Shown here piece by piece: positions 26,794-44,055 of a stretch of DNA of 64,000 nucleotides. The stretch spans positions 2,346,156 to 2,410,155 of the forward strand of contig CAJSYZ010000006.1 in assembly GCA_910574455.1 (NCBI GenBank), in the 5' to 3' direction. The first letter of the stretch is position 1, and each line of letters begins with the position of its first letter. A model generated the notes under the pieces. It ran no database searches. It saw only the letters and a list, made by a program, of their open reading frames with translations, and was not told the origin of the DNA. This DNA is from Trichaptum fuscoviolaceum (lineage: Eukaryota; Basidiomycota; Agaricomycetes; Hymenochaetales; Trichaptaceae). Both the position numbers and the translations under genes were made by a program.

Positions 26794-28052
26794 ATGAACT
26801 CACAATTATTCCCAAACATCCCATCTCTCGATAGTCTAGATGGCGAGGAGCTTCTGTCTTATCTATTGGTGACGTTCAAAGGCGACTTCGACGATCACTC
26901 AGTGAGTTGCGCTTACGTATGGCGTTCTTCTGTCTCTCACTACTGTACAACAGGAACAATTAATTTTAGGTCAACTAATCAGGGCCGTCGTGAACTCGGG
27001 GACGAGCAGCCTCCCGAATGCCGTCCTACGACAGCTTGAAAACTTCGAAGTAACAGCGGATCAGCTCCTTCCGATCCAAAGAACTATGAAAATCGCTGGC
27101 GCGCTCCTGGACGCTAATGAAGAGACGATGCGGTTCTTCCTCACCAGAAAGATTGTCACTTCTGTTGTTGTTCTCTTTGACGGCCTTCTAGGTTTGCGCC
27201 CGGAGACGATATCGAGTCAAAAAGAGCGGCTTCAGACATGCATCGCATGCTTCATGTTAGTCATTGTGGCCATGCGATGTTCGAACGGCGTTCCGTGGGT
27301 GGTAGAGGCCTTTGAAAGTGACCTTTTGTCTTTACTACTCAAGGTAACGGATGAGCTGAAGAGCACTCGAGCTTTTGGAGCTCTTGTCAGAAGACTTATC
27401 GGCATCATCGGTGAAGTCTTGGGGACCGTTACAGAGTGCATGTCCTATTACTCTGTAATAACTGCTCTTTCAACTATCAAGGGTAAGCGTAATGCAGCGA
27501 GAGCCGTACGCGCTCAAGAGTCAGGCCCTTTGAAAGACAAGTGGGTTGCGCTTTTCAATCTCATTATTGAGAGGTGTGCGATCCAGGGTTTATTATCTGC
27601 TCGGATTCGGAATGTGCCCATTCCATGCGACAATGTAAGCTTCATCTATGTCAAACGTGCCGCATATTGACTCTTAAACCGATAGGTGGAGTGCAACACA
27701 AAACGCCGCCGTGGTGACATGCTTAAATGCGCGGGGTGTCTATGCACATTCTATTGCTCGCAACCATGTCAAAGGAGGGCTTGGAAGTTCGGCGATCATA
27801 AAGCAGTTTGCACTAGCCCCGATACCAGCGATGGTAGGTCGTCATATTCTATCTTGTTGGTGAGTGCTATTCTAACTGCTCTAAGGTCTCGTCACATGGG
27901 GCTCTCGGGACATGGCGTTCCTCCCCTTGCTGTGCCAGGCATGGGTAGTCAAGAACTCGATTTTCATCTCCGCCCAGGCGCGCAAGAAGTTTCCTCGTGT
28001 GCCGGCACATGACATCGCCTTCTCCGTCGACTTCAGAGATCAACCTCCAAAG
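26794..28052 (+). pseudogene. MYND-finger protein copy B, 5' part, cut by a retrotransposon
   Basis: The first exon (26794-26898) contains IPSLDSLDGEELLSYLL. The second starts at the acceptor near 26954 and includes SSLPNAVLRQLENFEV, GVPWVVEAFESD, MSYYSVITALSTIKGKR and SGPLKDKWVALFNLIIERC. After the 27635-27686 intron comes the MYND finger with KCAGCLCTFYCSQPCQRRAW and GDHKAVC. A final exon (from about 27895) reads WGSRDMAFLPLL, ARKKFPRVPAHDIAF and FRDQPPK, and is cut at 28052 by the copia 5' LTR. The reading frame continues exactly at 44061 after the element once the CAAAG duplication is allowed for. No other lesion is seen, so the gene was probably working until this insertion. Confidence 0.85.
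28048..28052. repeat. Target site duplication CAAAG, left copy (copia element)
   Basis: CAAAG directly abuts the TG of the 5' LTR, and the same five bases directly follow the CA of the 3' LTR at 44056-44060. Five bp is the usual Ty1/copia duplication. Confidence 0.95.
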
Positions 28053-28318
28053 TGTTAGAGTACAATACCGGTTCAACCCGGATTATATAATATATTTCCT
28101 TTTTCGTTAATTTGCAATTACATACGGACTCTAAAAGTTTTCCTTCGTCTGTATGCTACCTCATCGCTATTGCATAGCGCTGAGGTATGTTCAACTTAGT
28201 TTCACTCTTATTTTCTTATGCTGATTATAATGTATTTAGTTTATTATATTTTAGGTAACTAAATACATCAGCCATCGCTATTGCATAGCGCTGAGTTTAT
28301 TATATTTTAGCTCCCGCA
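28053..28318 (+). repeat. 5' LTR of the copia element
   Basis: 266 bp, TG...CA ends. An AT-rich TATA-like stretch (TTATATAATATATT) lies at about 28082-28095. The palindromic word CGCTATTGCATAGCG occurs twice (28165-28179 and 28276-28290). The first is inside a 31-base hairpin, 28157-28187, flanked by TACCTCA/TGAGGTA. Another inverted pair, GTATTTAGTT/AACTAAATAC, lies between them. Confidence 0.95.
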
Positions 28319-28330
28319 GGTTATGAGCCT
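28319..28330 (+). promoter_or_regulatory. Primer binding site of the copia element (half-tRNA-iMet type)
   Basis: GGTTATGAGCC follows the LTR directly. It is complementary to the anticodon arm of initiator tRNA-Met (loop CAU), the priming mode known for Drosophila copia and several fungal copia elements, rather than to a tRNA 3' end. The tRNA itself is not in the window, so this is inference from general tRNA-iMet sequence. Confidence 0.6.
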
Positions 28331-28406
28331 TGCGACGCTGTCAGCGTAAAGCATTAGTGCATCAATCGACATCCATACTATCACCAAAGTCTAAATCCTA
28401 ATTACC

Positions 28407-31400
28407 ATGACTGGTCCCAAGCAAACGGACACGGAGGACAAGGAAGCAAAGGCAGTGTCAAGCACGAGCCAAACTCCTGCCCCGGTGGACAAGCAGAAGA
28501 TCGGGTTGGACGTAATCGAGAAGGCCTTGTATGGGCCCGGCAGCTACAAGCCCCACCCGATTAAGAATGGGAAGCTTAAGGAAATAGGATGGGAACTGTG
28601 GATATCGAATGTATTTGGATTCGTGGTCCGAACATTATGTCAGGGATGTCGGACTGGGACTACGCCCTTGCCCGGACATCAGTGCAATCCCGACGGAAGC
28701 AGAGAAAGAAGCTCTCCTAACGTGGAATCACATGGACCAAAAGGCAAAGACCATTCTCCAACAGGGTCTTTCCGTGGAACACAAGAAGCTAATCCAAGGG
28801 TCGAGCACGGCATACGAAATGTATCGGAAACTCACGATGAACTTCGCAAAGGACGCCCAGTTATCACCGGCGATGGCCCTGTACGAAGTATGCACGCACA
28901 AATGGGATAGTGGGACCTCCACATTCGATGAGAACCTTCAGTATATTCAGGGTCAAATCGAAGACTTACGACAGTACCCGGGCACGAGAGAGCAGCTAAT
29001 AGACCTCATTCACTCGGTTGCCATTCTCAATTCGCTTCCGCCCGAGTGGGAAAGCATTCGAAGCGCCATCTACAACACGGCTAATATCGAAGTCAAAAAC
29101 GTGATCCTCACCACTCGGCGACACGCGCAAACGACGGGATCCGGAAACGGAGACCAAGCCCTGGCCATCAAGGTCAAGGGGCTGGGAAAGGCGAAGGGTA
29201 AAGCCAAGAAAGGGAAGACTGTATGCGAGAACTGCAAAAAGTCAGGTCACACGAAGGCTTCTTGCTGGGCTAAAGGCGGCGGAAATGAAGGCGGCGGACC
29301 GAATAAGAACAAATTTGGTAACGGGTCTTCAAGTGACGCCGGCAAAAGCGAGAAGAAGAAGAAAAGCGCCTATACCGTCACGGCAGACGATGACGATGAC
29401 GACTTCTCCGCCAGTGATGCCACGGCTAACGTAGTCACCCTGGGCCGCAGCCCCGAGTCCCCGCTCGAAGACTCGACTCCCGCACACAGCGAGGAGGACG
29501 AGTGGTTACCATTCCCGTCAATATTGCCAACCGAACGCGCAAATGTCGTCAGTATAGCATCTGCTGTGCCTTCACGCTCCACCCAGTGGATTTTCGACAC
29601 TGGGGCATCCACCAGCCTTACCGGCGATCGCCAGAGTCTCCGTGACTACCAGTCGATCAAGCCTATACCCGTAGGTGGCTTTGGAACTGCGATGACGGCC
29701 CAAGCGATCGGCAAGGGACGCGTCACTCTGCGATTCACGCCCGGTGATCGGGAGACCACCCTGGACCTGGGAAACGTACTATACGTACCCGAGGCCGGGT
29801 GCAATATTATCTCCGCCAGCCGCTTGTTGAAGTCGGGCATATCCTTTGCTAGCACGAGCGACGGAATCAAAATTTTACATAATGGTTCCCTACTGGCTCG
29901 CGCGGCTCGAATTAATGGTCAATTTATTCTCCAGAATATGAGACCCGCGAGACTATACGCAAACGCTGCTGTGACTGAGCTACCCTTCCACGAATGGCAT
30001 ATTCGCTTTGGACACCTCGGCAACACTTACCTAAAGAAGTTGATCGAGAAGAAAATGGTACAGGGTCTTACCATTGACAAAAATACCCTGAAAGCGCCCG
30101 AACACTGTCAACCGTGCGCGCTAGGGAAAATGTCACGGCAACCTTTCCCAAAGTCGAAGTCCAGGGCTACGCGCCCACTGGAACTTATTCATTCCGACTT
30201 AGCCGGACCCCAAAAAGTCAAGTCTCGTAAGGGATTCCGTTATATTCTCACTATTACGGACGATCACACTCGCTTCACATGGGTGTATTTCCTACCCGAG
30301 AAGAGTGCCGTACCGAGCGTATTCAAGGAGGTCATACCTCTGTTCGCACGCCAGTACGGATACGAAATCAAAATAATTCGTACCGATCGAGGGGGGGAAT
30401 TTCTAAACGAGAAAATGACACAGATCTGCCGCCAGCACGGCATACGGCAACAAACGTCAAATGCGTACACTCCACAGCAAAATGGAGTAGCGGAGCGCCT
30501 TAATCGGACGCTAGCCGACAAAGTTCGCTGCATATACGCAGAGCACCCCGACATACCCGCAAATCTGTGGCCCGAGGTTTTTACCCACGTAAATTATTTA
30601 CGAAATCTCTCACCAACTTCGGCACTCCCGAACAAGACACCCTTCGAGGCACTCCACGGGTCTAAGCCCGATGTGTCTAATTTACGTCCCTTCTGGGACG
30701 ATGTCAATGTTCACATCCCCGAAATCGAACGGAATAGTAAATTGAGCCCTCGCGGACGGAGCGCTAAATTTCTTGGATTTCCCGAAGGAGTTAAGGGCAT
30801 ATTGTATTATGACCCTAATTCTCGTAAAGTTTCCACTTCGAGAGACTTCGTCTTCCCGCGGAACCCATTTACTTCCGTGCCGAGCTCAACGAATACCGAT
30901 CCCGCATCGATCGAGGGGGGGAGGCCCAATGGTGGCGATCTCACGGACTCAGATACGGACAGCGAGGACTCAGATGCAGCCGAATCAAATGCACGCAAGC
31001 CGCATACGAACGCAAATGCGCCGTCTGAGCAGCAACAGCAACAGCAACAGCAAACCAAAAAGTCTAGACCTCGCATTGACTACGGCGAGAAGACACGCAC
31101 ATCCGCGCGACTCAACCAGAGAGCGCAAGCTCAACAGCAAGCTACTAACGACGGCACTGTCGAGCCGACTCCCACGGAGTCCCAACCTACCGAATTAGTT
31201 ACGGAACGCAACCAGGAGATCGGTGGAGAAAACTCCATAGCCCACTACGTATATGCGAATATAGTAATGGACGATAGAGACCCACTAGATTACCGGGAAG
31301 CGACCTCCGGACCGAATAGGGAAGGCTGGATAAAATCTATGGAAAAGGAACTCGGAAATATGGAACGCCTTCACGTTTACGATCTAACCGAGTTACCACC

Positions 31401-32636
31401 AGGCCGTAAAGCGATCGGCTGCAAATGGGTTTTCAAGACCAAACGGGGAGCCAACGGCGAGCCGAAGGAGCTCAAGTCCCGGTTGGTCGCCCAGGGGTTT
31501 ACGCAAAAGTACCTGGTCGATTACGACCAAGTACACGCCCCCGTTGCCCGAACAGGGTCAATTAAGCTTTTGGCTGTCCTTGCCGTCCATTTGGGGCTGA
31601 AGGCTCACCAATTAGACGTCAAGGCAGCATTTCTTCACGGCGAACTCAGTGAAGAAATCTATATGCGGCAACCGCCCGGTTTTGTGGACCCGGACAAGAA
31701 GGACTTCGTACTTAGGCTCAAAAAGTCTATTTACGGACTCAAACAGTCTGGGCGCGTATGGAACCAGCGCTTCGACAAGGAGCTGAGGACCTTAGGCTTC
31801 TCTCGCCTTATTAGCGACCCCTGCGTCTATATCCGGCGATCCGAGGCCGGCATTACCATGCTAGGACTCCATGTTGACGATATGGAATTCTTTTGCTCGG
31901 ACGACGCAGCAGTGCCGGAGTTCATCAAACTTCTTGGAGACCGCAATATAGAGTTGGTACATGTGGGGCCTCTTACCTACATGCTAGGGGTGAAATTTAC
32001 TTTCGATTATCGTCTTTGCTCAGTCGGCATTGACCAGCATGGCTATATTGATGTCCTGCTTACTCGATTTGGAATGACGGAAGCAAAAACAGCTCCGACG
32101 CCGTTCCCATCGGGTGCCAAGCTAACGAAAGAAGACTGTCCAAAGACAGACAAGGAGATCAGCGAAATGAAGCATTACCCTTACCACGCATTAATCGGCA
32201 GTTTACTCTATTTGACAGTTTGGAGTAGGCCGGACCTTGCCTTTTATGTTAATGCCCTGGCTCAATATTCCTCGAACCCCGGTAAACGTCACTGGGAGCT
32301 CGGGAAGCATGTCCTCCGATTCCTGAAACATACTCGCGACTCTACACTTATTCTCAAAACGGACGCAGAAGGACCACTCCTTACCGGCTACGCAGACGCC
32401 GACTGGGGCTCAAGCGAAGGTCGCCGTTCGACGACCGGCTACGCATTCACCCTAGGCTCGGGTGCCGTTACCTGGCAATCAAAGAAGCAGCCAACCGTGG
32501 CGCTATCATCTGCCGAGGCCGAGTACATGGCTCTTTCGGCTGCCACCCAGGAGGCCCTTTGGCTTCGTTCTTTACTTTCTGAATTAGGCTTCCCTCAACG
32601 GAAACCGACTATTATTTTTTCTGATAATTTAAGCGC
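28407..32636 (+). pseudogene. Copia gag-pol polyprotein, interrupted
   Basis: The N-terminal Gag part starts at ATG 28407 and reads KLKEIGWELWISN. The rest continues one frame ahead (+1) from about 28588-28611 (MYLDSWSEHYVRD), so a frameshift separates them. Later: zinc knuckle CENCKKSGHTKASC (about 29224-29265), protease FDTGASTSL (about 29595), integrase HHCC with WHIRFGHLGN and HCQPCALGK, integrase core HSDLAGP, TDRGGEFLN and PQQNGVAERLNRTL, a poly-Gln linker (31030-31060), RT with KWVFKTKRG, QLDVKAAFLHGEL and the active site LHVDDME (about 31868), then RNase H with ADADWGSSEGRRSTTGY and SSAEAEYMAL. At 32636 the frame is cut by the gypsy LTR; the remainder is at 43575-43782. Confidence 0.93.
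32632..32636. repeat. Target site duplication AGCGC, left copy (gypsy element)
   Basis: AGCGC before the gypsy 5' LTR is repeated at 43570-43574 right after its 3' LTR. The copia reading frame resumes exactly there. Confidence 0.95.
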
Positions 32637-33186
32637 TGTTACGCATCAAGCTGCTTACCCTTGTTTACACATTGTTTATGTTCCCCCTCATCTTTTTCTC
32701 TCACCCTTTCTACCTGCATGTGCGTACACACATTGCATCATTCTTTCATCATCGACTCCACACTCCGATGGCTCCACTCGCTCCACCTTCACTCCGAGAG
32801 CCCCAGGACCTTCCACTCCGATGATACATCATTCTACTCCACTCTACTCCACCTATGTTCCGATTTGACATCATCCTCCATTAATTAGAGCCACTATGAC
32901 GGACTCACTCCACTTCCGACCCGCGATGATGTAGTTTCATTCCTTGCTCCACTCTATTGTTCTCTGTAGTATATTAAGGCCATGTACATAGCGCCCCAGG
33001 ATGACACTTAAGTCAATCCTCCTATAGTCTTTTACAATCACGTACCAAAGACTCTGTTCACCCACGACTTCCGGTATAGAGACCCTCACAAAGCGGACCC
33101 TCTATACTGTACTTGCTACTTCACCCAACAACGCTTTGGTCACTTATCATTTCCGTGATAAGTCCATCGAAGCCGTGAACGTAACA
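32637..33186 (+). repeat. 5' LTR of the gypsy element
   Basis: 550 bp. TATA-like TATATTAA at 32970-32977. The last ATG is at 33001-33003. The predicted RNA start, by complementarity to the primer site, is 33010 (AAGTCAATCCT). The 3' LTR has TATATAA instead; the extra T in TATATTAA is the one length difference between the LTRs. Confidence 0.93.
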
Positions 33187-33200
33187 ATTAGGATTGACTT
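33010..33200 (+). promoter_or_regulatory. Self-priming pair: 5' RNA end and primer binding site
   Basis: AAGTCAATCCT (33010-33020, in the LTR about 33 bases after the TATA element) is the exact reverse complement of AGGATTGACTT (33190-33200), which begins three bases after the LTR end. This is the arrangement of Tf1/Tf2-type self-priming retrotransposons, where the first 11 bases of the RNA fold back on the primer site and are cut to prime reverse transcription. No tRNA-end match is evident. Confidence 0.8.
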
Positions 33201-33767
33201 CTTTCTCATCTGAGATTGATCTCAACTCCGAAACACCCCCCCTCTACGCTCTACCACATTCTACAGCAGAATAAATCGGTACACCCTACGCATTCCAATC
33301 CGGAATACTGACGGTTAAGTATTACAACTGGCCCTTGTCTACTAACTATCATCTAGGAACGAAAGGAATACGAACGACAGTACGATTGAATACACCAAGC
33401 ATACAGTGCTATACTTGGAAGGAAGCGACAGACAAGTAATCACAGAAATTAAGCAGGTTCACGACAGAATTTACGGTCCTTGTTACGCGTTTGGTTGGTG
33501 ATAGCGTGAAGCAGAGGATCGCGACCCATTCAAGCAGCTTAGCCACGTCCAACGTAACTTGAAGAGAAGAAGGAAGCAGGGGAAAGGTCTCATCCACCAC
33601 AGAAACTGCCACAGCCGGAAGACAAGCATACCCTCACTCGTAGACGACAGCAATACACGGTGAACATCGAAACAGATTATCCAGCGAACCTAGGAAGACA
33701 GAAAGGACAAGGTATCGAAGACGTTAATATCACTCACGCATACTCTTGTAGCTCAAAGGGTTGATAA

Positions 33768-34397
33768 CCCGAGGAAGTGCCCAACCTGAGGATTACTATA
33801 CTACTCGCCAATCGCACGGAACTACCGTTGGCAGGCGTACTAAGGATCAACATCCTTAACCCCGTCTCCATCTACGACTTACAACCCACTTCATACCAAT
33901 CCGACACACCCCCTCATAACCCCTCTGAACTTGACGAAAGCAGGACAGACCCACAGGACTATTCCGAGTACGAACATCGAACACAAGAAGATAACGAAAG
34001 CCTCTACGATCAACTTGTACCCCCTCGATTAGAACCCACCGTTACTCAGGAAACCTACGCATACTCCGCCGAGGAAGGAACAGATTTCGAGAACCCAAGC
34101 CACCATTGGAACGAAGTATCTGAGCACAACAGATTACTACCTCCCGTGACTCCGAATCACTCCAACCCTCCGATCACTACACCCCCAAGCGTAGAACAAG
34201 CCCTACGTCCCTTCCCTCAACTTCGAACGTCCGAACGAACTCCCACACCCGCTCCAGGACCTTCCAGAACTTTAGGAAACCTCAGACAAACTTTCCAAAG
34301 GACAGGAAGACGACTCAGGAATACATTACAACAACCAATCAATCAATCTGGCGAATCAAGCTCCCGCTCCCACCCCCAACTTCGACCAACTAATTGA
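33768..34397 (+). CDS. Leader open frame A, no ATG
   Basis: 209 codons between the stop at 33765 and TGA 34395-34397, with no Met codon. It starts near PNLRITILLANRTELPLAG, an ordered-looking strand pattern, then becomes acidic and Pro/Thr/Ser-rich. Composition resembles protein-coding sequence of the element. Translation would need a non-AUG start (GTG 33777, for example) or another route. It overlaps open frame B by 120 bases in the +1 frame. Function unknown. Confidence 0.45.
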   Translation, partial: PEEVPNLRITILLANRTELPLAGVLRINILNPVSIYDLQPTSYQSDTPPHNPSELDESRTDPQDYSEYEHRTQEDNESLYDQLVPPRLEPTVTQETYAYSAEEGTDFENPSHHWNEVSEHNRLLPPVTPNHSNPPITTPPSVEQALRPFPQLRTSERTPTPAPGPSRTLGNLRQTFQRTGRRLRNTLQQPINQSGESSSRSHPQLRPTN

Positions 34398-34875
34398 AGA
34401 CAACTATCAGCACCTTGTCAATAGTGCATTAGTTCATCCGATCCAACAGAACTCCAAATACGACCTACAATACCTCCAACTCCATCTACACTCTATACGA
34501 CACGACCCCATTAATTGGATCTACCGACACGGCATCTTTTGGTTCGAAGGAAAGCCATACATTCCCGATTGTTACCTTCGCAAAGGCCTTATTGGAATCT
34601 GCCACACCAAAGTTGACAACGCCATTGATCATTTCTCCGAAAGAGAAACCCTCTTGAACCTCACATCAATCGTTTATTGGCCCGGACAACCCCAGGACGT
34701 TGCAACCGAAATACGGAAGTGTATTTGTTACCTACTACACTCTGAACCACCCACCCGAGTTGCCAGCCCACCTCTCGAAGCATCCATCCGATCCATTACT
34801 CCACCCCCTGTTGAACCCGAAGAAGGAAGCCGAACCATTACTCCGACTCCCCCAGCAAACGAAGACACCAACTGA
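34276..34875 (+). CDS. Leader open frame B, no ATG, with H2C2-like zinc-binding pattern
   Basis: 199 sense codons without Met, closed by TGA 34873-34875. The middle reads INWIYRHGIFWFEGKPYIPD, then H-x8-H in ICHTKVDNAIDHF, then IVYWPGQPQDVATEIRKCIC. This order resembles the gypsy integrase H2C2 zinc domain (compare the element's own pol: YVPKNKEIMRNILRLHHDL, YYWPRMQQFISKYVQGCAIC). The C-terminal part is Pro/Thr-rich. It is in the same frame as frame C and gag but separated by TGA and TAA (34885). It may be a captured or decayed integrase module. Whether it is translated is unknown. Confidence 0.5.
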   Translation, partial: ETSDKLSKGQEDDSGIHYNNQSINLANQAPAPTPNFDQLIEDNYQHLVNSALVHPIQQNSKYDLQYLQLHLHSIRHDPINWIYRHGIFWFEGKPYIPDCYLRKGLIGICHTKVDNAIDHFSERETLLNLTSIVYWPGQPQDVATEIRKCICYLLHSEPPTRVASPPLEASIRSITPPPVEPEEGSRTITPTPPANEDTN

Positions 34876-34887
34876 ATTAAATTTCAG

Positions 34888-35886
34888 TAACTCGTTAAAC
34901 TGGCGCCGAAAGACAGACCACCAGTCCCAGGAAAATACGTACCCATAGCAGCCCAAGTACCCGTTGGAGTTACCCGCCCAGAAAACGCCGAATTTGACCC
35001 AGTAAACCGAGCCTGGTACAGACTTGACAAATCCAGACGAAAAGTCTACCTTCATTTTCACTCAGGACACGACACTTGGAGAGCAATCTCACATACCATC
35101 AAGAACCCGACCACATACTACAAACAGGTTAATACTTGGTACGCAGGAATCGAACCCAGTCAGGAAGAAATCGACCAGATACTTGCAAGAACATCAAGAA
35201 CAGGCAGTCGACTTAACTCACCCAGAGTTGTTTCTTCTCAACTCGCATCACCCGCTCCTTCACAACACTCGCCATTAACCACTACTCAACCAGAAGCACC
35301 ACCAGCTAAAACCGAAGCACCACCCGCTGAATCGACAGCACTACCCTCATTATCTTACGCAGCAGCAGCAGCACCTAAAGCTGAACAAACCTCCCCACTC
35401 CTCACATTCACCCAACCGAAGGCTGAAACACCCGCACCTGTTTCTGTACTCGAATCCGAAGAACCAGAACTTGTAGGACAATTCGAAGGACTTCGCATCG
35501 ACACCAGATTTGAAGAAGGCGCAACTTGGATACCCACTTGGACTCCACTTCCCAAGAACTACACTTCGCAGGAGACACAAACTATCCTCACTCTCGAGCA
35601 ACTAGAGAAAGAGGAAGCTGAACTCAGAAGGCGCAGACGAGAATCTGAAGCAGAAACTTCAGACGAATCAGAAGAAGACTCAGAAGCCGAGGACACGGCA
35701 CACACCGCCGAAGGATCTGCACACTCAGCCGCAGGATCTACATCGGTTAACGCCAACAATAGCAACCGAAGCTCACCTATACCCGTAATTCTGGAAAACG
35801 ACGAACACCCCGAACAGGAAAACCTACCACAGCCACCCCCACCCCCACCGTCACCTACACCCCCAGGAACCCCAGTAATAGTCGAA
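34888..35886 (+). CDS. Leader open frame C: 333-codon Met-free extension in frame with gag
   Basis: Open from just after TAA 34885-34887 straight into the gag ATG, with no stop and no Met. It starts with KLAPKDRPPVPGKYVPIAA and an aromatic region (AWYRLDKSRRKVYLHFHSGH). Then comes an Ala/Pro/Glu region, another ordered piece (ELVGQFEGLRIDTRFEEGA), an acidic stretch and a poly-Pro stretch before gag. If initiated at a non-AUG codon it would give an N-terminally extended Gag, comparable in principle to CUG-started glyco-Gag of murine leukaemia virus. That comparison is inference. Confidence 0.5.
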
Positions 35887-37029
35887 ATGGCCGATCAAGC
35901 AGACCATCAACCACGAGGTACCGGAGCAAACAAACCTTTTAACTTTACCGGCAAACGAAGCGAAGCTAGCCGATGGCTTAGCCTTGTTGAAAACTACTTG
36001 GCACTTAACGATTTGGACTATGCAACCGATCAACGCAAAATACGATTTGCACTCTCCTTTTGCACTGAAGGACCCGCTGCAATCTTTGCAAAGAATGTTA
36101 AAGACGAACAGGACAATGCACAATGGGTTATGACTTGGCAACAATTTGTTGACAAATTCAAGTCACATTTCATTTCCACCGATTACATCGCCGACGCATT
36201 CAAGGAACTCTCTAGCCTTAAGCAAGCACCTACGGACAAAATCGACGATTACATTCATAACTTCCAGCGACTCGCACGAGAAGCAAACATCACCGACTTC
36301 ACAGTACTCTTTTCCATGTTCAAGAATGGATTACTGCGACATACGCGAACCGCACTACTTCAAAAGGATATCCCAATTCCAGACAATGGAATAAAGATAA
36401 TGGCACCATACTACGAAGCAGCCAGGAAGATAGGAAAATCATACGAAGAGATCTATCAGGACAACCGCCCGTTCAATCGACTCCGCAACCGTTATGGACA
36501 ATCATCATACAATCGACCTCGATTCAACAAATTTCGCAGACGACGACTCAACGAAATGGACATAGATTCTGAACCCGAATCAGATCAACCCGAGGAACCG
36601 GAAAATCTAGAAGAATCATTCAAGCTCTATGCAATGTACTTCAACAAGCTTACGCCCGAGGAAAAGAAGAAAGCGCAAGCAGATGGACTCTGTTTCTACT
36701 GCAAGAAGGCAGGACATTTTGCAAACAAATGCCCTTCGCGTCCCGCACGCACCCCGAAGTTCCGAAGCTCAGGAAAATCCCCAAGGAAATTCCAGAACAA
36801 CTTCAGACGGAACAATGGACGATTCAAGAAGCGAAACATCAACTCGATGGAACTTGACGAAGAACCCGATGACCCGGACGATTTGATTGCTGAACGCGCA
36901 ATCCAGATCCATGAAATGATGACAGACCTCAATGGACAGGAACAGGAAGCATTGTTCAACATGCTAGACGAAATGCCCGATCCCAATGATGACAACGACG
37001 ATTTTGACGATGATGATGGAAATTTTTGA
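35887..37029 (+). CDS. Gag of the gypsy element
   Basis: 380 residues from the first ATG of the predicted transcript. Retrotransposon Gag (capsid-like) region: NFTGKRSEASRWLSLVENYL, FCTEGPAAIFAKN, WQQFVDKFKSHFI, YIHNFQRLAREANI. A CCHC zinc knuckle CFYCKKAGHFANKC at residues 269-282 is followed by a basic patch (RRNNGRFKKRN) and a very acidic tail of Asp/Asn. Gag packages the RNA and forms the particle. The stop TGA 37027-37029 directly follows a slippery heptamer that leads into pol. Confidence 0.93.
   Translation: MADQADHQPRGTGANKPFNFTGKRSEASRWLSLVENYLALNDLDYATDQRKIRFALSFCTEGPAAIFAKNVKDEQDNAQWVMTWQQFVDKFKSHFISTDYIADAFKELSSLKQAPTDKIDDYIHNFQRLAREANITDFTVLFSMFKNGLLRHTRTALLQKDIPIPDNGIKIMAPYYEAARKIGKSYEEIYQDNRPFNRLRNRYGQSSYNRPRFNKFRRRRLNEMDIDSEPESDQPEEPENLEESFKLYAMYFNKLTPEEKKKAQADGLCFYCKKAGHFANKCPSRPARTPKFRSSGKSPRKFQNNFRRNNGRFKKRNINSMELDEEPDDPDDLIAERAIQIHEMMTDLNGQEQEALFNMLDEMPDPNDDNDDFDDDDGNF
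37020..37026 (+). promoter_or_regulatory. -1 ribosomal frameshift site A_AAT_TTT
   Basis: In the gag frame the bases read GGA AAT TTT TGA. The heptamer AAATTTT fits the X_XXY_YYZ rule. A -1 slip gives AAA TTT TTG ATC, the open pol frame, which has no ATG of its own at its start. No secondary structure was calculated. Confidence 0.75.
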
Positions 37030-40000
37030 TCAACTCCGAGTTGGTTAATCTGATTCAACTCAACACCATCACTATCAACGGAAACACTCACTCTTTTCGC
37101 ATACCCATCACGGTACTCATTAACGGACAACCTCACACACTCTCAGCTCTACTCGACACCGGAGCACAACTCAATTTCATCAACTCAAAACTAGCCAACA
37201 AACTCAAACTAAAAACGCAGAAAATCGACAAACCCATACTAGTCAGTAACGCCGATGGTACACTCAACACAGAAGGCAGTGTCACCAAACGAACTCGAAT
37301 CCACATCACACACCCCCACACTCTTTCACCACATTTCTATCTCACTCATATCCCAAAGGACGACGTTATACTAGGTCTACCTTGGTTTAAACAAGCTAAA
37401 CCAAAGATAGACTGGGGAAACGATGCAATCACCATAAACAAGATTACGATTTCAACCCGAATGGAACAAGAAAAACAACAGAAACTACCACCACCAGAAA
37501 AACTTGACATCCCAAAGGAATATATGCCCTATGCCAATATCTTCTCCGAAAAAGAAATCCAAAAATATCCACCAGCACGACCTTATGATCACGAAATCAA
37601 GACGAAACCCTCCTTCATACCGAAAATCTTCAAAACCTACAATACTCCGTACCACCAAAGACCCATACTCCGTGACCTTATTAATGACCTACTCAAGAAA
37701 GGATTCATTAAACCCTCCGCATCACCGATGGCCTCACCATTATTCTTCATCAGTAAGAAAGATGGAACCCTCCGACCGATTCAGGATTATCGATATCTAA
37801 ACGAGCATACAATCCGCGATGGATTTCCAATACCGAACACCCAGACACTATTGAATCAACTCCAAGGATCCAAATACTTCACCACCCTTGATATTCGACA
37901 AGGATACCACAACATTCGAATCAAGGAAGAAGACCAATGGAAAGCCGCATTCAACTGCGAAGAAGGACACTTTCAACCAACAGTTATGTTCTTTGGCCTA
38001 TGCAATTCACCCGCCACCTTTCAACGTTTCATGAATGATATACTTGCAAAGCAAATCCGCGAAAACAAGTGTATTGTTTACATGGACGACATTATGATCC
38101 ATGCCGCCACTATGCAACAACTTATCTCAAATACCCTCGAAGTTTTCGACGTCCTCAAGAAACACAAGCTATATCTCAAACCTGCCAAATGCCGATTCCA
38201 CCAGACCGAAGTCCCATTCCTAGGATACATTATCTCCGAGTCACAGATCAAGACCGACCCGACGAAGATACAAGGAATAGTTGACTGGCCGACACCAAAG
38301 AATCTACGAGACATACGATCATTTACAGGATTTACGAACTTCTACAGGCGATTCATTCCCCATTATGCCACCATATGCCGACCCCTCGATCAACTAAAAC
38401 GCAAAAACATACCATTCGTTTGGACCGACCGACAACAACATGCTTTTCAAACACTCAAGGACTTATTCTCGAAACAACCACTCCTTATGCAACCCGACCC
38501 GAACAAGCCATTCTACCTCGAAACCGACGCTTCAGCCGTAGCTACTGGTGCAGTACTACGACAACTCGACAAGGATAATCAATTACGACCAATTGGATAC
38601 ATCTCCCAAGCACTTAATCCGACGCAACGAAACTGGCAAATATATGACAGGGAACTATTTGCTATCATCCGCGCATTACAGACATGGCGACACTATCTAT
38701 TAGGCAGCCCACATGTTATCACAGTACATTGTGATCACAAGAACCTAACCTATTGGCGACAACCACAACGATTAACCCCTCGACAAGCCCGATGGCAGAA
38801 CGAACTTTCACGTTACCCCCTCCAAATCCAAGCAGTCCCCGGAAAACACATGATCCAATCCGATGCCCTTTCCCGGAGACCCGACCAATTTAAAACGGAA
38901 GGAGAACTCAACAACGAAGTTACACTTCTACCAGAAAAGGTTTTCATTCAAGAGATGGAAATACTCGAAGCCGAAATAGAAGAACAGGACGATGACGATC
39001 GAAACACCATTGACATCGACGAACTTCATGACAACATTCGACTCGAAACAGGCGACATTCAGAAAGCAATGACACTCATTCAGAAAGAACTACCCCTCAC
39101 GAAACCGAAGATGACCGACTTCTCAATCAAGGATAACCTTGTACACTTTAGGAACAAGATCTATGTTCCGAAGAACAAGGAAATCATGAGAAACATCTTA
39201 CGACTTCATCATGACCTCCCTACGCGAAATCACCCAGGAATAGCAAACACAATGGAACAGATTCGACGCACCTACTACTGGCCCCGCATGCAGCAGTTCA
39301 TTTCGAAATATGTACAAGGATGCGCAATTTGCCAACAGATGAAGATAAATCACCATCCACTCGTACCTCCGCTCAGCCCGATCATCGCAGACAAAGACAC
39401 ATACCCCTTTGCTACAGTCAATATTGATTTCATTACCGACCTACCGGAATCAAATGGCTACAACAGCATATGTGTTATTGTGGACCATGATTGCACCAAG
39501 GCAATAGTACTCACCCCATGCAACAAGACGATCACCGCACTCGATACCGCACAACTCTACATCGACAATGTCTACAAACGATTTGGATTACCCAGGAAAA
39601 TAATCTCAGATCGTGGACCCCAATTTGCATCAACACTATTCAGACAGCTATGCCGCTTACTGCACATCAAGCAGGCTATGTCTACAGCATATCACCCACA
39701 AACTGATGGACAAGCAGAACGAATGAACCAGGAGATCGAAGCATACTTCCGAATTTATGCAGCAAACCACCCCCAACATTGGTCACGATACATACCAATG
39801 ATGGAATTCACTCACAACAATCGCAAGCATTCCACCACAGAGCAGACCCCTTTCCGATTACTTATGGGATACGACCCAACATCATTTCCTACGGAAAAAT
39901 CCGAGATCGACAGTAACATCCCCACACTCCAAACTCGCTTAATCAAGATATTGGAACTCCGAACCGAAGCCGAAGCAGCTCTAACTCTCGCACAAGAATT

Positions 40001-40463
40001 CCAGCGTGAGACACAGGAATCACACTTCCAGCCCTTGGAAGAAGGACAAAGTGTATGGTTAGAAGCCAGGAACCTCCGACGAACCGGACTACCCTCGAAG
40101 TTCCAATCTAAACGAGAAGGACCCTTTACGATCATCAAGAAGCTCAGGGACAATGTCTATCAACTCGATCTTCCAGAGCATTGGAAAATACATCCAGTAT
40201 TTCATGCTTCTCTTCTCACCCCACACAAGGAAACGGACGAACATGGACCATCTTACACACGACCACCACCTGACCTTATCGAAGGAGAAGAAGAATATGA
40301 AGTTGAAGCGATACTCAATCACCGAGGACCTCCGAAGAAGCGCGAATATCTTGTCAAATGGCTAGGATACCCGACATCACAGAATCAATGGATACCCGAA
40401 CATTCACTGGAGAATACACAGGAACTTCTGTCCGAATACAAGAAGGCACACAGGATCAAATGA
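37026..40463 (+). CDS. Pol polyprotein with C-terminal chromodomain
   Basis: 1,145 codons in frame -1 to gag. Order: aspartic protease with LLDTGAQLNFI (Asp about residue 44); RT with FFISKKDGTLRPIQDYRYLN, TTLDIRQGYHNI, FGLCNSPATFQRFMN and active site YMDD (about residue 352); RNase H with YLETDASAVATGAVL and VHCDHKNL; integrase zinc domain RLHHDLPTRNHPG plus GCAICQQMK; integrase core Asp in VNIDFITDLP, Asp in SDRGPQFAS, Glu in QTDGQAERMNQEIE; then the GPF-like stretch SKREGPFTIIKKL and HPVFHASLL. The last 60 residues are a chromodomain (EYEVEAILNHRG, KREYLVKWLGYP, NQWIPE), which in chromoviruses steers integration to marked chromatin. All catalytic residues are intact. The stop TGA overlaps ATG 40460. 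Confidence 0.96.
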   Translation: MINSELVNLIQLNTITINGNTHSFRIPITVLINGQPHTLSALLDTGAQLNFINSKLANKLKLKTQKIDKPILVSNADGTLNTEGSVTKRTRIHITHPHTLSPHFYLTHIPKDDVILGLPWFKQAKPKIDWGNDAITINKITISTRMEQEKQQKLPPPEKLDIPKEYMPYANIFSEKEIQKYPPARPYDHEIKTKPSFIPKIFKTYNTPYHQRPILRDLINDLLKKGFIKPSASPMASPLFFISKKDGTLRPIQDYRYLNEHTIRDGFPIPNTQTLLNQLQGSKYFTTLDIRQGYHNIRIKEEDQWKAAFNCEEGHFQPTVMFFGLCNSPATFQRFMNDILAKQIRENKCIVYMDDIMIHAATMQQLISNTLEVFDVLKKHKLYLKPAKCRFHQTEVPFLGYIISESQIKTDPTKIQGIVDWPTPKNLRDIRSFTGFTNFYRRFIPHYATICRPLDQLKRKNIPFVWTDRQQHAFQTLKDLFSKQPLLMQPDPNKPFYLETDASAVATGAVLRQLDKDNQLRPIGYISQALNPTQRNWQIYDRELFAIIRALQTWRHYLLGSPHVITVHCDHKNLTYWRQPQRLTPRQARWQNELSRYPLQIQAVPGKHMIQSDALSRRPDQFKTEGELNNEVTLLPEKVFIQEMEILEAEIEEQDDDDRNTIDIDELHDNIRLETGDIQKAMTLIQKELPLTKPKMTDFSIKDNLVHFRNKIYVPKNKEIMRNILRLHHDLPTRNHPGIANTMEQIRRTYYWPRMQQFISKYVQGCAICQQMKINHHPLVPPLSPIIADKDTYPFATVNIDFITDLPESNGYNSICVIVDHDCTKAIVLTPCNKTITALDTAQLYIDNVYKRFGLPRKIISDRGPQFASTLFRQLCRLLHIKQAMSTAYHPQTDGQAERMNQEIEAYFRIYAANHPQHWSRYIPMMEFTHNNRKHSTTEQTPFRLLMGYDPTSFPTEKSEIDSNIPTLQTRLIKILELRTEAEAALTLAQEFQRETQESHFQPLEEGQSVWLEARNLRRTGLPSKFQSKREGPFTIIKKLRDNVYQLDLPEHWKIHPVFHASLLTPHKETDEHGPSYTRPPPDLIEGEEEYEVEAILNHRGPPKKREYLVKWLGYPTSQNQWIPEHSLENTQELLSEYKKAHRIK

Positions 40464-40912
40464 CCGAACTTGCATTTGATTTCATTCCGCATCCGGAACA
40501 AACTAAGGACGCCACTCAAAGAAACCTCCAAATCAGACAACAACCCGTTATTCTTCCGATTCATCAAATTCTCAAGAAGTATATCAGCCTCAACCAGACA
40601 CCAACGCTTAGCAAGATGATCAAGCCAGCAGACCTCGCTAACTTCTGCGCATACATCCTCTCACTTGATATCCGACCGGAAATCAAGGATCTTGCACAGA
40701 AATTACTTTACGAGTCTTTCCGACGCATTGACCAAGGCCTAGGACCCTATCGGACCTTTTCTCAACGATTTGTATTCACCTCATCCAATCGAAGAGACAC
40801 CCCGGAGATTACAGTCAGATATGGGCCGAACAATCAGTTCATTATCACGTCAACACCGCACTATCAACCGCCGCCGCCCTACTCCGATACCATCTCCACA
40901 ACCCCTTCGTAA
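40460..40912 (+). CDS. Extra ORF 1 after pol (150 residues), ATGA overlap with pol
   Basis: The start ATG (40460-40462) overlaps the pol stop TGA by two bases (ATGA), the usual layout for termination-reinitiation; an in-frame ATG also exists at 40358 inside pol. The protein begins MTELAFDFIPHPEQT and has a helical region (ADLANFCAYILSLDIRPEIK). It ends with TSTPHYQPPPPYSD, which holds a PPxY motif (40868-40882), the class used by retroviral late domains to recruit Nedd4-type ligases. No family recognised. Confidence 0.6.
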   Translation: MTELAFDFIPHPEQTKDATQRNLQIRQQPVILPIHQILKKYISLNQTPTLSKMIKPADLANFCAYILSLDIRPEIKDLAQKLLYESFRRIDQGLGPYRTFSQRFVFTSSNRRDTPEITVRYGPNNQFIITSTPHYQPPPPYSDTISTTPS

Positions 40913-41444
40913 CGACCCTCCACCCACGGAAATAAGCAAAGAACAAATCCTTAATGACCTTCGCACACTAGCAGCAGAAACTCCGACCAACCGTCAACCC
41001 ACACTCATTTTTCACCTATTCAATTTCATCCATCAACAAGAAGAACCCAACACTCCACCGCTCAATCACCTCATCGATTTCATCGATACTCTTCTTACCC
41101 ATGCGACTCCATTACACCAGGCACACCTTTCGATAGGACTCTACATACTAATTCAAATGGTCAAGACAAATGACCTTGAAGGATCAGTACAACTTCCGAA
41201 TGGATTCCGATTCATTCACCGGCAACCGGCATCCGTTCAGACCTCCGAAACTTCTACTTCCAGAGATTCCACATCCCCTCCGCCCTTGGAACCTTTCTCT
41301 CCCGCATATAGTCCCACTACCTCCACGGAATCGCTCACCAGTCACACTACTGACGACCCGGACTCAGACAAAGAGAACATCCCCACTCAACATGCCATTC
41401 AACTTCGACACCCCTATTCCGACATTCGAAGCACCCCCCTTTGA
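40821..41444 (+). CDS. Extra ORF 2 after pol (207 residues)
   Basis: +1 frame relative to extra ORF 1 and overlapping its last 92 bases. From ATG 40821 it reads MGRTISSLSRQHRT. It has a helical central part (KEQILNDLRTLAAE, HLIDFIDTLLTHATPLHQ, LSIGLYILIQMVK) and a Ser/Thr/Pro-rich tail with DDPDSDKENIP. It stays open 5' of the ATG to 40770 and beyond, so a +1 shift from extra ORF 1 is an alternative to a new start. No homologue recognised. Confidence 0.5.
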   Translation: MGRTISSLSRQHRTINRRRPTPIPSPQPLRNDPPPTEISKEQILNDLRTLAAETPTNRQPTLIFHLFNFIHQQEEPNTPPLNHLIDFIDTLLTHATPLHQAHLSIGLYILIQMVKTNDLEGSVQLPNGFRFIHRQPASVQTSETSTSRDSTSPPPLEPFSPAYSPTTSTESLTSHTTDDPDSDKENIPTQHAIQLRHPYSDIRSTPL

Positions 41445-41943
41445 CGCTGAAGAACACCTCGCAGCCACTGACCCCGGACCTCTACTACCAGCTGAGGATA
41501 TTGATCCCCTCTGGGTAACAGGCTGGGGCAATCATGCAAACGATTGGCAAAACGGAGCATGGCACCCGCAACTGACACCCGCACACCCGGAAAACGACTA
41601 CCCCTCCCCTCCGCCCTCTCCCACTCTACCCCCTCTCAGTCCCTTCGACCTCGTCCGGCACTATATCTTTGACCCCTCCCACTCCGACTATATCAACATC
41701 CGCCGACTCAAGACTCTCAATCCCCATCCCCAACTCACCACCCTCGTCCTCCGCCGCACATTCTTCACTCCGGAGTACGCCACCCCGATTCTACAAGCCC
41801 TACACATCCTCCTCGACCTCCCCTACGTCCCCTGGATAGGCCGACGCGTTCGACACGCAGGAACACCGCATCGACACTTCGTAGCTTACGACGAAGACCC
41901 CATCTGTGTCTGCAGTTGTTGCAGGTATTGCCCCGTTCACTAA
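41392..41943 (+). CDS. Extra ORF 3 after pol (183 residues)
   Basis: Starts MPFNFDTPIPTFEAPPFDAE inside the end of extra ORF 2 (53-base overlap, +1 frame). It is Pro-rich in the first half (PSPPPSPTLPPLSPF), then has an ordered part (RHYIFDPSHSDYINIRRL, TLVLRRTFFTPEYATPIL, HILLDLPYVPWIGRRVR). It ends with a Cys cluster CVCSCCRYC, which might bind metal. No family recognised. Confidence 0.5.
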   Translation: MPFNFDTPIPTFEAPPFDAEEHLAATDPGPLLPAEDIDPLWVTGWGNHANDWQNGAWHPQLTPAHPENDYPSPPPSPTLPPLSPFDLVRHYIFDPSHSDYINIRRLKTLNPHPQLTTLVLRRTFFTPEYATPILQALHILLDLPYVPWIGRRVRHAGTPHRHFVAYDEDPICVCSCCRYCPVH

Positions 41944-41945
41944 CA

Positions 41946-42854
41946 ATGCCAGCTATCCGCAACACTCGTCAAGGACTTCCGAACCGCGTCTTTCGAACCC
42001 CTCATCCTCGAAATGTCAAACCAACGCGACAGCGATTCATTGACGGCACCCTTCCTCCTCCCGATCTCGAGCAACTTCTACCCGGCATCACCTTCCAACA
42101 GACACTACAGACACGACGACAATGTGCAGCTACGCTTCTGCATAATGGCAAACTTCGCGACCTCACTCAGAATGTCACTGTCAGCCCCCTTCCCCATATT
42201 GTCTACACCACTCAGCAAATGTATGACATTTTGGAGACGATGCTGGATCTGTTTGAGAGCAGTCGACGATCGCAACAGAAGGTTGACACCTTTGAACATC
42301 AGGAACTAGTACGTCGTTTGAATCAGGTTCTTATTACTCAACTCGAGAACCAGTTCAACGAATTCGAATTTCAATCGCTCCTCTCTTCGGAGATCGTTAA
42401 CGGAAAGGTCAACGTCCCCACCGACCCGGAACCACAACCCATGGCCGATCCCTCCCCTCTCGAGCTCACTCCGCAGGCTGCGCCCGACGCATATCACGAG
42501 CAGCTACATGTCCCGATCTTCGACCTAGATCGACTCCATAACTTCGAAACCGCTCCGCCGCCGCCTAGCCCTCATCAACAGCTCTATCTCCCTACAGAGG
42601 AAGAACTTGAGACGATCAACCAAGAACTTCAGGACCTCGCCATTCCTGAATTACCCCTCATGGCTCCGCCCGACATAACGATACAGCCGCCTTCGCCGCC
42701 ATACATTGTCAACACTCCTCGACCGGAAGACTTCACTTCACCACCATCATACGCCCCCATTGACTGGACCGACCCCTATTTCCTTTCAATGTATCGACTC
42801 TTCCTTAATAACTTTGATTTCTCTCAGACAGTCACCAATGTACCCAGCGCTTGA
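41946..42854 (+). CDS. Extra ORF 4 after pol (302 residues)
   Basis: ATG 41946 lies two bases after the stop of extra ORF 3; the frame is open a little further upstream. The N terminus is basic (MPAIRNTRQGLPNRVF) with an Arg-rich region. The middle is helical (QQMYDILETMLDLFESSRRS, QELVRRLNQVLITQLENQFN). The C-terminal half is Pro/Glu-rich with PPSY (42741-42752), a second PPxY, and ends with an aromatic helix (WTDPYFLSMYRLFLNNFDF). No hydrophobic membrane anchor is seen, so it is not an obvious envelope protein. Confidence 0.55.
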   Translation: MPAIRNTRQGLPNRVFRTPHPRNVKPTRQRFIDGTLPPPDLEQLLPGITFQQTLQTRRQCAATLLHNGKLRDLTQNVTVSPLPHIVYTTQQMYDILETMLDLFESSRRSQQKVDTFEHQELVRRLNQVLITQLENQFNEFEFQSLLSSEIVNGKVNVPTDPEPQPMADPSPLELTPQAAPDAYHEQLHVPIFDLDRLHNFETAPPPPSPHQQLYLPTEEELETINQELQDLAIPELPLMAPPDITIQPPSPPYIVNTPRPEDFTSPPSYAPIDWTDPYFLSMYRLFLNNFDFSQTVTNVPSA

Positions 42855-42859
42855 ACCCC

Positions 42860-42946
42860 TTATTGGTCTTAACTTGACCCTATAGCGACTGATATTTATC
42901 TTTCTCTTACGCTTTTACTTATTGATCTTAACTTGATCCTATAGCG
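42860..42946 (+). repeat. Two direct 28-bp repeats ahead of the gypsy 3' LTR
   Basis: A 28-bp unit starting TTATTGRTCTTAACTTGA and ending CCTATAGCG occurs at 42860-42887 and 42919-42946 with two differences. It lies between the last ORF and the 3' LTR. The purine tract next to the LTR (GACAGGGTAT) is short. Confidence 0.75.
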
Positions 42947-43020
42947 TTGTACCTTTCTTTGAAATTCTCGCATTCGCATTCTTATGCTACTACGGAATTT
43001 CAATCTTAGTGACAGGGTAT

Positions 43021-43569
43021 TGTTACGCATCAAGCTGCTTACCCTTGTTTACACATTGTTTATGTTCCCCCTCATCTTTTTCTCTCACCCTTTCTACCTG
43101 CATGTGCGTACACACATTGCATCATTCTTTCATCATCGACTCCACACTCCGATGGCTCCACTCGCTCCACCTTCACTCCGAGAGCCCCAGGACCTTCCAC
43201 TCCGATGATACATCATTCTACTCCACTCTACTCCACCTATGTTCCGATTTGACATCATCCTCCATTAATTAGAGCCACTATGACGGACTCACTCCACTTC
43301 CGACCCGCGATGATGTAGTTTCATTCCTTGCTCCACTCTATTGTTCTCTGTAGTATATAAGGCCATGTACATAGCGCCCCAGGATGACACTTAAGTCAAT
43401 CCTCCTATAGTCTTTTACAATCACGTACCAAAGACTCTGTTCACCCACGACTTCCGGTATAGAGACCCTCACAAAGCGGACCCTCTATACTGTACTTGCT
43501 ACTTCACCCAACAACGCTTTGGTCACTTATCATTTCCGTGATAAGTCCATCGAAGCCGTGAACGTAACA
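43021..43569 (+). repeat. 3' LTR of the gypsy element
   Basis: 549 bp, matching the 5' LTR except that TATATTAA there is TATATAA here (43354-43360). The predicted RNA start equivalent is 43393. AGCGC follows at 43570-43574. Confidence 0.95.
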
Positions 43570-43574
43570 AGCGC

Positions 43575-43782
43575 CATTTCTTTAACCGAGGACTCGGTCT
43601 TTCACCAACGGGTCAAACATATTGACATCCGTCACCATTTTATTCGCGACCATGTCAACAAAGGCGCGGTGAAGGCCGAGCACTTACGTACCGAGGACCA
43701 ACCGGCGGACGCTCTCACTAAAGCGCTCCCGAAGTCCTCGCACTCCCGCCTATCCTCTATTCTTGGTATGAACCGGAATTGA
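43575..43782 (+). pseudogene. Copia RNase H C-terminal remainder
   Basis: Continues the copia frame broken at 32636: SLTEDSVFHQRVKHIDIRHH and EDQPADALTKAL are the standard end of copia RNase H. It closes with the stop at 43780-43782, just ahead of a polypurine tract GAGGGGGGG (43781-43789) and the 3' LTR. Frame and sequence are intact apart from the insertion. Confidence 0.93.
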
Positions 43783-43789
43783 GGGGGGG

Positions 43790-44055
43790 TGTTAGAGTAC
43801 AATACCGGTTCAACCCGGATTATATAATATATTTCCTTTTTCGTTAATTTGCAATTACATACGGACTCTAAAAGTTTTCCTTCGTCTGTATGCTACCTCA
43901 TCGCTATTGCATAGCGCTGAGGTATGTTCAACTTAGTTTCACTCTTATTTTCTTATGCTGATTATAATGTATTTAGTTTATTATATTTTAGGTAACTAAA
44001 TACATCAGCCATCGCTATTGCATAGCGCTGAGTTTATTATATTTTAGCTCCCGCA
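43790..44055 (+). repeat. 3' LTR of the copia element
   Basis: 266 bp and identical to the 5' LTR as compared line by line. The target duplication CAAAG follows at 44056-44060. Confidence 0.96.

Follow-up and report, generated by a model that had tools for sequence, protein, structure and literature searches.

An AUG-free leader of about 2.9 kb, with three AUG-less open reading frames under coding constraint, precedes gag in a Ty3/gypsy retrotransposon of Trichaptum fuscoviolaceum

Results

A chromovirus with three open reading frames ahead of gag

We analyzed 64,000 nt of the Trichaptum fuscoviolaceum genome (assembly GCA_910574455.1, contig CAJSYZ010000006.1, positions 2,346,156 to 2,410,155, forward strand; hereafter the window, numbered from its first letter). 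The window holds a long terminal repeat (LTR) retrotransposon with three long open reading frames (ORFs), A, B, and C, between its 5' LTR and gag, none of which contains an AUG (Table 1). The protease, reverse transcriptase, RNase H, and integrase order of pol, followed by a C-terminal chromodomain, identifies the element as a Ty3/gypsy chromovirus. An alignment of its two LTRs, 550 columns long, shows a single gap and no mismatches, and this near-identity indicates a young insertion. We compared the window copy with its sister copies (the main family) and with two diverged families of the same kind, family 2 and family 3.

Table 1. Predicted features of the gypsy element in the window.
Feature	Position	Strand	Remarks
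5' LTR	32637..33186	+	TATA-like box at about 32970
AAGTCAATCCT, predicted RNA 5' end (self-primer)	33010..33020	+	perfect 11-nt complement of the primer binding site
ATG-free leader	33010..35886	+	2,877 nt, predicted RNA 5' end to gag
AGGATTGACTT, primer binding site, Tf1 (self-priming) type	33190..33200	+	pairs with 33010-33020
ORF A	33786..34397	+	predicted start CUG (CCCAAC-CUG-A; alternative GUG 33777); 203 codons + stop
ORF B	34348..34875	+	predicted start CUG (AAU-CUG-GCG); 175 codons + stop; integrase N-terminal zinc-domain-like
ORF C	34900..35886	+	predicted start CUG (AAA-CUG-GCG); 329 codons, in frame with gag
gag	35887..37029	+	first AUG of the RNA, GAA-AUG-G; Pfam Retrotrans_gag, Ty3_capsid, zf-CCHC
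predicted -1 frameshift heptamer A AAU UUU	37020..37026	+	directly before the gag stop (A AAU UUU UGA, 37020-37029)
pol	37017..40463	+	protease, reverse transcriptase, RNase H, integrase, Tf2-type SH3, chromodomain; open in -1 frame
3' LTR	43021..43569	+	target duplication AGCGC

The leader of the window copy contains no ATG

An initial annotation of this DNA had described 33004-35886 as free of ATG, and exact counting bears this out: the plus strand has no ATG in any frame between those at 33001 and 35887, which lie 2,886 nt apart. This is more than seven times the second-longest plus-strand ATG distance in the window (387 nt); the longest distance on the minus strand is 415 nt. The hand counts that accompanied this description, about 43 CAT and about 25 GAT over 33187-35886, agree with the 46 and 27 that we find over the slightly longer full span. 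From its own dinucleotides, which are already depleted of ATG, the main-family leader would be expected to hold 19.9 ATGs, and we observe none. Counts elsewhere in the element are normal, with 95 ATGs observed against 67.8 expected in gag-pol, 10 against 5.5 in U3, and 24 against 21.7 in the region after pol, so the lack is restricted to one stretch and one strand. Since CAT, the reverse complement, is undepleted, a mutational bias acting on double-stranded DNA does not explain it. Moreover, when codons were swapped among synonyms within the three leader ORFs, none of 2000 shuffles was without ATG (mean 6.6 in the main family), and the same proportion, 0/2000, was found in each of the three families. 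These results uphold the earlier judgment that the absence is not random.

The position of the predicted RNA 5' end follows from a self-priming pair (Table 1). In Tf1 and Tj1, a pair of this kind reflects priming of reverse transcription by the RNA 5' end (PMC4600332), and 33010 is accordingly where we predict the RNA to begin. The complement extends over 11/11 nt in all three families: family 3 has a pair identical to that of the main family (AAGTCAATCCT/AGGATTGACTT), and in family 2 both arms are altered yet still pair (AAGTTCGATCT/AGATCGAACTT), a case of covariation. The TATA-like box lies about 40 nt upstream of the predicted start, and the final upstream ATG ends at 33003, 6 nt before it; the corresponding distance is also 6 nt in family 3 and is 10 nt in family 2. 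With an RNA beginning at 33010, the ATG-free stretch would span RNA start to gag AUG, and in each of the three families its limits match the predicted RNA 5' end on one side and the gag AUG on the other. The initial annotation had drawn the desert from RNA 5' end to gag; the gag limit holds exactly, and the self-priming pair strengthens the 5' limit, where the RNA end itself is a prediction.

Two diverged families have ATG-free leaders

A pattern search with a reverse transcriptase motif gave 115 matches, with three main types among the first 100 listed. Identity to the main family in the first 400 Pol residues is 71% for family 3 (L048 and others) and 49% for family 2 (L046 and others); for Gag the values are 45% and 27%. 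Family 3 has an ATG gap of 2,767 nt that ends at its own gag ATG, and in clean copies the distance from predicted RNA start to gag without ATG is 2,758 nt in family 3 and 2,567 nt in family 2. Their leaders would be expected to hold 22.1 and 18.8 ATGs, respectively; none is observed in these copies. In all, five of eight family 3 copies and four of six family 2 copies have ATG-free leaders. Near-full-length matches to the leaders number at least 94 in the genome (at least 31 in the main family and at least 37 and 26 in the others), and ATGs were counted in 45 of them.

As a separate feature of these leaders, TTG is about twofold in excess, with 42, 45, and 36 observed against 19.3, 22.0, and 17.9 expected in the main family, family 3, and family 2. 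Gag-pol shows no such excess (46 observed, 46.2 expected).

Sister copies of the main family

For the main family we fetched 37 loci and aligned 36, leaving out L045, which is split in two pieces. The leader is without ATG in 23 of these copies, including 19 of the 31 whose leaders exceed 2.8 kb, and the other 13 carry one to three. These 20 leader ATGs fall on 17 sites, 14 of them private and three common to two copies; 11 of the 17 read ACG in most other copies, a pattern that suggests recent CpG decay. The most frequent letters of the aligned leaders spell no ATG anywhere. Variants that make an ATG account for 15 of 251 singletons, 3 of 69 variants carried by two or three copies, and none of 109 carried by four or more (singletons versus the last class, Fisher p 0.007). 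As common variants never create an ATG, the active lineage appears to keep its leader free of it. Frames are open in 28/36 copies for ORF A, 35/36 for ORF B, and 29/32 for ORF C, counting for the last those copies that hold enough of it. A subfamily of eight of the 36 copies (L032-L039) has an insertion of roughly 34 nt at 35466, within ORF C.

The three leader ORFs are under coding constraint

Taken from stop to stop, A opens at 33768, B at 34276, and C at 34891; C continues into gag, and is predicted to form an N-terminal extension of Gag. All three ORFs are under coding constraint. For main-family variants present in at least four copies, the ratio of synonymous to nonsynonymous changes in the proper frame is 11/6 in A, 9/2 in B, and 30/27 in C, as against 14/43 and 13/44 for C in the other two frames. 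In family 3, where all two-letter sites of seven copies were used, the ratios are 17/9, 23/13, and 129/150, with 63/216 and 53/226 for C in the other frames. Six copies of family 2 give 10/1 for A in the overlap, 17/5 for B, and 41/36 for C, with 17/60 and 18/59 for C out of frame. One family 2 copy (L057) has a one-base insertion between the start of A and its remainder, which the other five copies lack.

By tblastn, both family 3 loci searched contain A (38% identity, best E 9e-22) and B (29%, best E 2e-11), and one of the two (L048) contains C (31%, E 5e-7). Family 2 B matches a profile of main-family and family 3 sequences with an hhalign probability of 96.8 (E 2e-10).

The frames in which the ORFs follow one another vary: in the main family, family 3, and family 2, A to B is +1, +1, and -1, and B to C is 0, -1, and -1. 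Independent starts would be expected to give such variation. The -1 relation of pol and its A AAU UUU site, in contrast, are constant in all three families, and AAATTTTTGA is found at the gag-pol junction of the window element, family 2, and family 3.

Near-cognate codons head the leader ORFs

Initiation at near-cognate codons depends on a strong context (A or G at -3, G at +4), and in many systems CUG works best among them (PMC3542737). Codons of this class with A at -3 stand at the predicted starts of the leader ORFs. For B these are AAU-CUG-GCG at 34348 in the main family, AAC-CUG-GCG in family 3, and AUC-GUG-GCG in family 2, and for C they are AAA-CUG-GCG at 34900, ACU-CUG-GCA, and ACC-ACG-GCG, respectively; in both ORFs the codon varies between families and its position is constant. 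The predicted start of A is AUC-ACG-GCA in family 2 and CCCAAC-CUG-A in the main family and family 3, within an 18-nt block identical in both. The latter has A at -3 and no G at +4, and a GUG nine nt upstream is an alternative start.

Most of these sites can be described by the motif A--(CUG/GUG/ACG)-GC, which occurs twice each in the leaders of the main family and family 3 and three times in that of family 2. In one leader per family, all seven occurrences head an ORF of at least 148 codons. Controls in which UUG was also allowed gave one occurrence in gag-pol, none in the post-pol region, and one, none, and one on the leader minus strands. Products of these GC-following starts would begin with Met-Ala. 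Start sites and flanks are intact in 36/36, 36/36, and 35/36 main-family copies, the one exception altering the -1 letter only; the CUG of A with its context and the CUG of C are each found in 36/36. The A, B, and C start sites are present in all eight family 3 copies and all six family 2 copies. The main-family gag AUG has G at -3, and that of family 2 has A.

ORF B resembles an integrase zinc domain

The N-terminal zinc domain of integrases has HHCC ligands with a C-x2-C spacing. Pfam Integrase_H2C2 scores 33.0 bits on family 3 B (cut-off 25.5) and 20.1 bits on the B of the window copy and of family 2, and the ligands H, H, C, and C are invariant in the four sequences compared, two of which come from family 3. 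The last ligand pair of B is C-x-C rather than C-x2-C, and owing to this variant spacing we label the protein integrase zinc-domain-like. AlphaFold models of B, built from small alignments of four and five sequences, give fold matches to the N-terminal region of Ty3 and prototype foamy virus (PFV) integrases. Overall, B looks like a free-standing integrase N-terminal domain, and our guess is that it acts as a low-dose modifier of integrase assembly.

Other features of the element and its surroundings

The Pfam domains of Pol comprise protease (residues 31-126), reverse transcriptase (245-406), RNase H (494-600), integrase zinc (721-777) and core (797-894) domains and, in the C-terminal part, SH3 (1010-1070) and chromodomain (1094-1143). 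Four overlapping ORFs, with ATGs present, are chained after pol over 40307-42851. Two of them match a family 3 sequence (one copy, L061), with 55% identity over 103 residues for 41152-41940 (E 1e-37) and 31% over 331 residues for 41673-42851 (E 7e-24); neither has a Pfam match.

The gypsy element sits inside a copia element that spans 28052-44055 overall, with LTRs at 28052-28318 and 43789-44055. The leader of this copia element does contain an ATG, at 28407. The copia ORF, 28609-32868, extends into the gypsy insertion.

Discussion

A leaky-scanning model for the leader

We consider it likely that the leader is a polycistronic leaky-scanning track that yields A, B, C-Gag, and Gag from one RNA. 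Of the ribosomes entering at the predicted RNA 5' end, a minority would initiate at the near-cognate codons and make A, B, and the N-terminally extended C-Gag. The majority would scan on through the whole leader to the first AUG, that of gag. An AUG at any point of the leader, whatever its frame, would divert ribosomes and lower Gag, and would be purged by selection on the active lineage; near-cognate codons would take little from Gag in return for A, B, and C-Gag. The weak starts may thereby give a graded output, with much Gag and little of the other three products. Scanning of this kind leads one to expect AUG loss in all frames of coding ORFs, exact limits to the desert, and shifting frame relations between ORFs, whereas none of splicing, frameshifting, or internal entry would require AUG loss. 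The initial annotation had offered scanning and non-AUG translation of the leader frames as alternatives; our data support both together, and what it termed "leaky-free" scanning should read leaky scanning.

Several observations weigh against this model. Among full-length main-family copies, 12 of 31 have leader ATGs, a finding that by the terms of the initial annotation would count against a selected desert, although these ATGs are mostly private and mostly lie at sites that are otherwise ACG. ATGs also occur in three of eight family 3 leaders (two in each, apparently shared by L051 and L053) and in two of six family 2 leaders (one in one copy, two in the other). ORF A is broken in 8/36 main-family copies. 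By hhalign, A and C of family 2 show no detectable similarity to the A and C of the other families, the overlap of A and B in family 3 has no favored frame (6/10, 6/10, and 3/13), and C is far less constrained than gag in the main family (30/27 against 41/2). The gag AUG of family 3 has C at -3. The start of A in the main family and family 3 (CUG followed by A) departs from the GC-following motif, which was named post hoc and is descriptive, and 11 of 236 other CUG, GUG, and ACG triplets also lie near the head of long ORFs. Finally, all copies of the three families come from one genome, and the model is built from sequence.

Alternative explanations

The strongest alternative, which we nonetheless find unlikely, is that ribosomes simply scan an untranslated leader, with A, B, and C as remnants of former genes whose AUGs were purged to spare translation of gag. 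Scanning alone would suffice for the absence of ATG, and the weak constraint on C and the broken copies of A fit a relic. Against it stand the proper-frame synonymous excess in three families, most of all in B (9/2, 23/13, and 17/5), and the persistence of A, B, and C in family 3 at only 29-38% identity to the main family.

We give considerably less credence to a spliced subgenomic mRNA that would express the leader ORFs or gag from an AUG made or brought by splicing. Candidate signals exist: family 3 (L048) has one consensus donor and, at leader position 302, a 43-nt intron-like stretch (GTAAGT...CTAAC...TAG) that could be a mini-intron, family 2 has one donor at 164, and the main-family leader has a branch-like TACTAAC at 331, a place matching that in family 3, and a relaxed-donor candidate at 2130. 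The main-family leader, however, lacks any GTRNGT donor. Moreover, introns tolerate AUGs, so splicing leaves their absence over 2.9 kb, coding ORFs included, unexplained.

Equally improbable is synthesis of Gag through an internal ribosome entry site or a shunt, with the leader ORFs expressed in some other way. It has in its favor that 2.9 kb is very long for scanning, and that rice tungro bacilliform virus (RTBV) shunts over a structured leader before leaky scanning (PMC5902531). A skipped part would be freed from pressure against AUG, yet the entire leader is AUG-free, and folding of the sense RNA is weak, at -22.2 kcal/mol per 150 nt compared with -36.4 for a host flank.

Harder still to credit is programmed frameshifting that would join A, B, and C from one non-AUG start: successive ORFs abut or overlap and a -1 slippery site exists at gag-pol, but the A-B and B-C frame relations vary between families, and B and C of the main family share a frame with a stop between them. 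Chance or base composition is refuted by the ATG, CAT, and shuffle counts: the sense strand of the leader is G-poor (17% G), but gag-pol, likewise 17% G, exceeds its expected number of ATGs, CAT is undepleted, and three families concur.

Significance

A broader proposal builds on the leaky-scanning model, and we see it as evenly balanced between right and wrong. It holds that, in a clade of self-priming chromoviruses, the leader ranks with the longest stretches of any eukaryotic RNA that ribosomes scan without meeting an AUG, and serves four proteins through three near-cognate starts in a row and one AUG, with B dosed by weak initiation to control integration. If true, these elements would offer a natural, evolutionarily replicated test of ribosome scanning distance and of near-cognate start tuning, in a fungal RNA with about 2.9 kb ahead of its first AUG. 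Low-dose production of a free integrase zinc-domain protein would point to a new mode of integration regulation. The three conserved ORFs per element would represent coding capacity of LTR retrotransposons that is invisible to AUG-based annotation, and AUG-free ORFs ahead of a capsid ORF, as in plant pararetroviruses, raise the question of a convergent polycistronic strategy.

Comparison with known systems

The initial annotation knew of no described fungal retrotransposon with such a leader. This stands in a narrower form: a search of the open-access literature, with subscription journals lying mostly outside it, turned up no kilobase-scale AUG-free leader in any LTR retrotransposon.

The closest parallels are RTBV and the badnaviruses (Caulimoviridae), in which leaky scanning proceeds through AUG-free ORFs I and II (PMC5902531, PMC3542737). 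They too are reverse-transcribing elements with consecutive long ORFs lacking internal AUGs ahead of a capsid ORF, and RTBV likewise has a near-cognate start (AUU) for its first ORF and several proteins off one RNA. The span, however, is about 900 nt in RTBV and 2,877 nt here, over three times as long, and ORF II of RTBV has an AUG start, whereas all three leader ORFs here are AUG-less. RTBV also requires a shunt over a leader that contains upstream ORFs; here no AUG-started upstream ORF lies between the predicted RNA start and ORF A, a difference from the RTBV leader. In addition, the carrier here is an LTR retrotransposon, with C fused in frame to Gag.

In murine leukemia virus (MLV) Gag and in mammalian PEG10, which is itself of retrotransposon origin, translation from an in-frame CUG that precedes the gag AUG yields a longer Gag (PMC3542737, PMC2800197). 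The element has the same arrangement, an AUG-less frame continuous with gag and headed by a CUG in strong context (AAA-CUG-G, 34900). As far as those descriptions go, MLV and PEG10 have one extension only, of 34 residues in PEG10 compared with 329 codons here, and no AUG-less A and B precede it.

With Tf1 and Tj1 the element shares a primer binding site complementary to the predicted RNA 5' end; the Tj1 figure legend gives Gag, protease, reverse transcriptase, and integrase only, and the description consulted mentions neither leader ORFs nor an AUG-free leader (PMC4600332). The Drosophila MDG1 group resembles it in having accessory ORFs (sORF1 and sORF2) between LTR and gag, on unspliced RNA and under coding constraint, but those ORFs are short and were found via canonical start codons, and the account used here describes no AUG-free leader (PMC11952523). 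As in B and C, N-terminal extensions of Agaricomycetes cpc-1 keep the position of a near-cognate start while its codon changes; cpc-1, however, is a host gene with upstream ORF AUGs in its leader and a single extension (PMC5487733). Seen against these systems, the class of mechanism is already known; what appears new is the carrier, the length, and a design in which every leader ORF is predicted to begin at a near-cognate codon.

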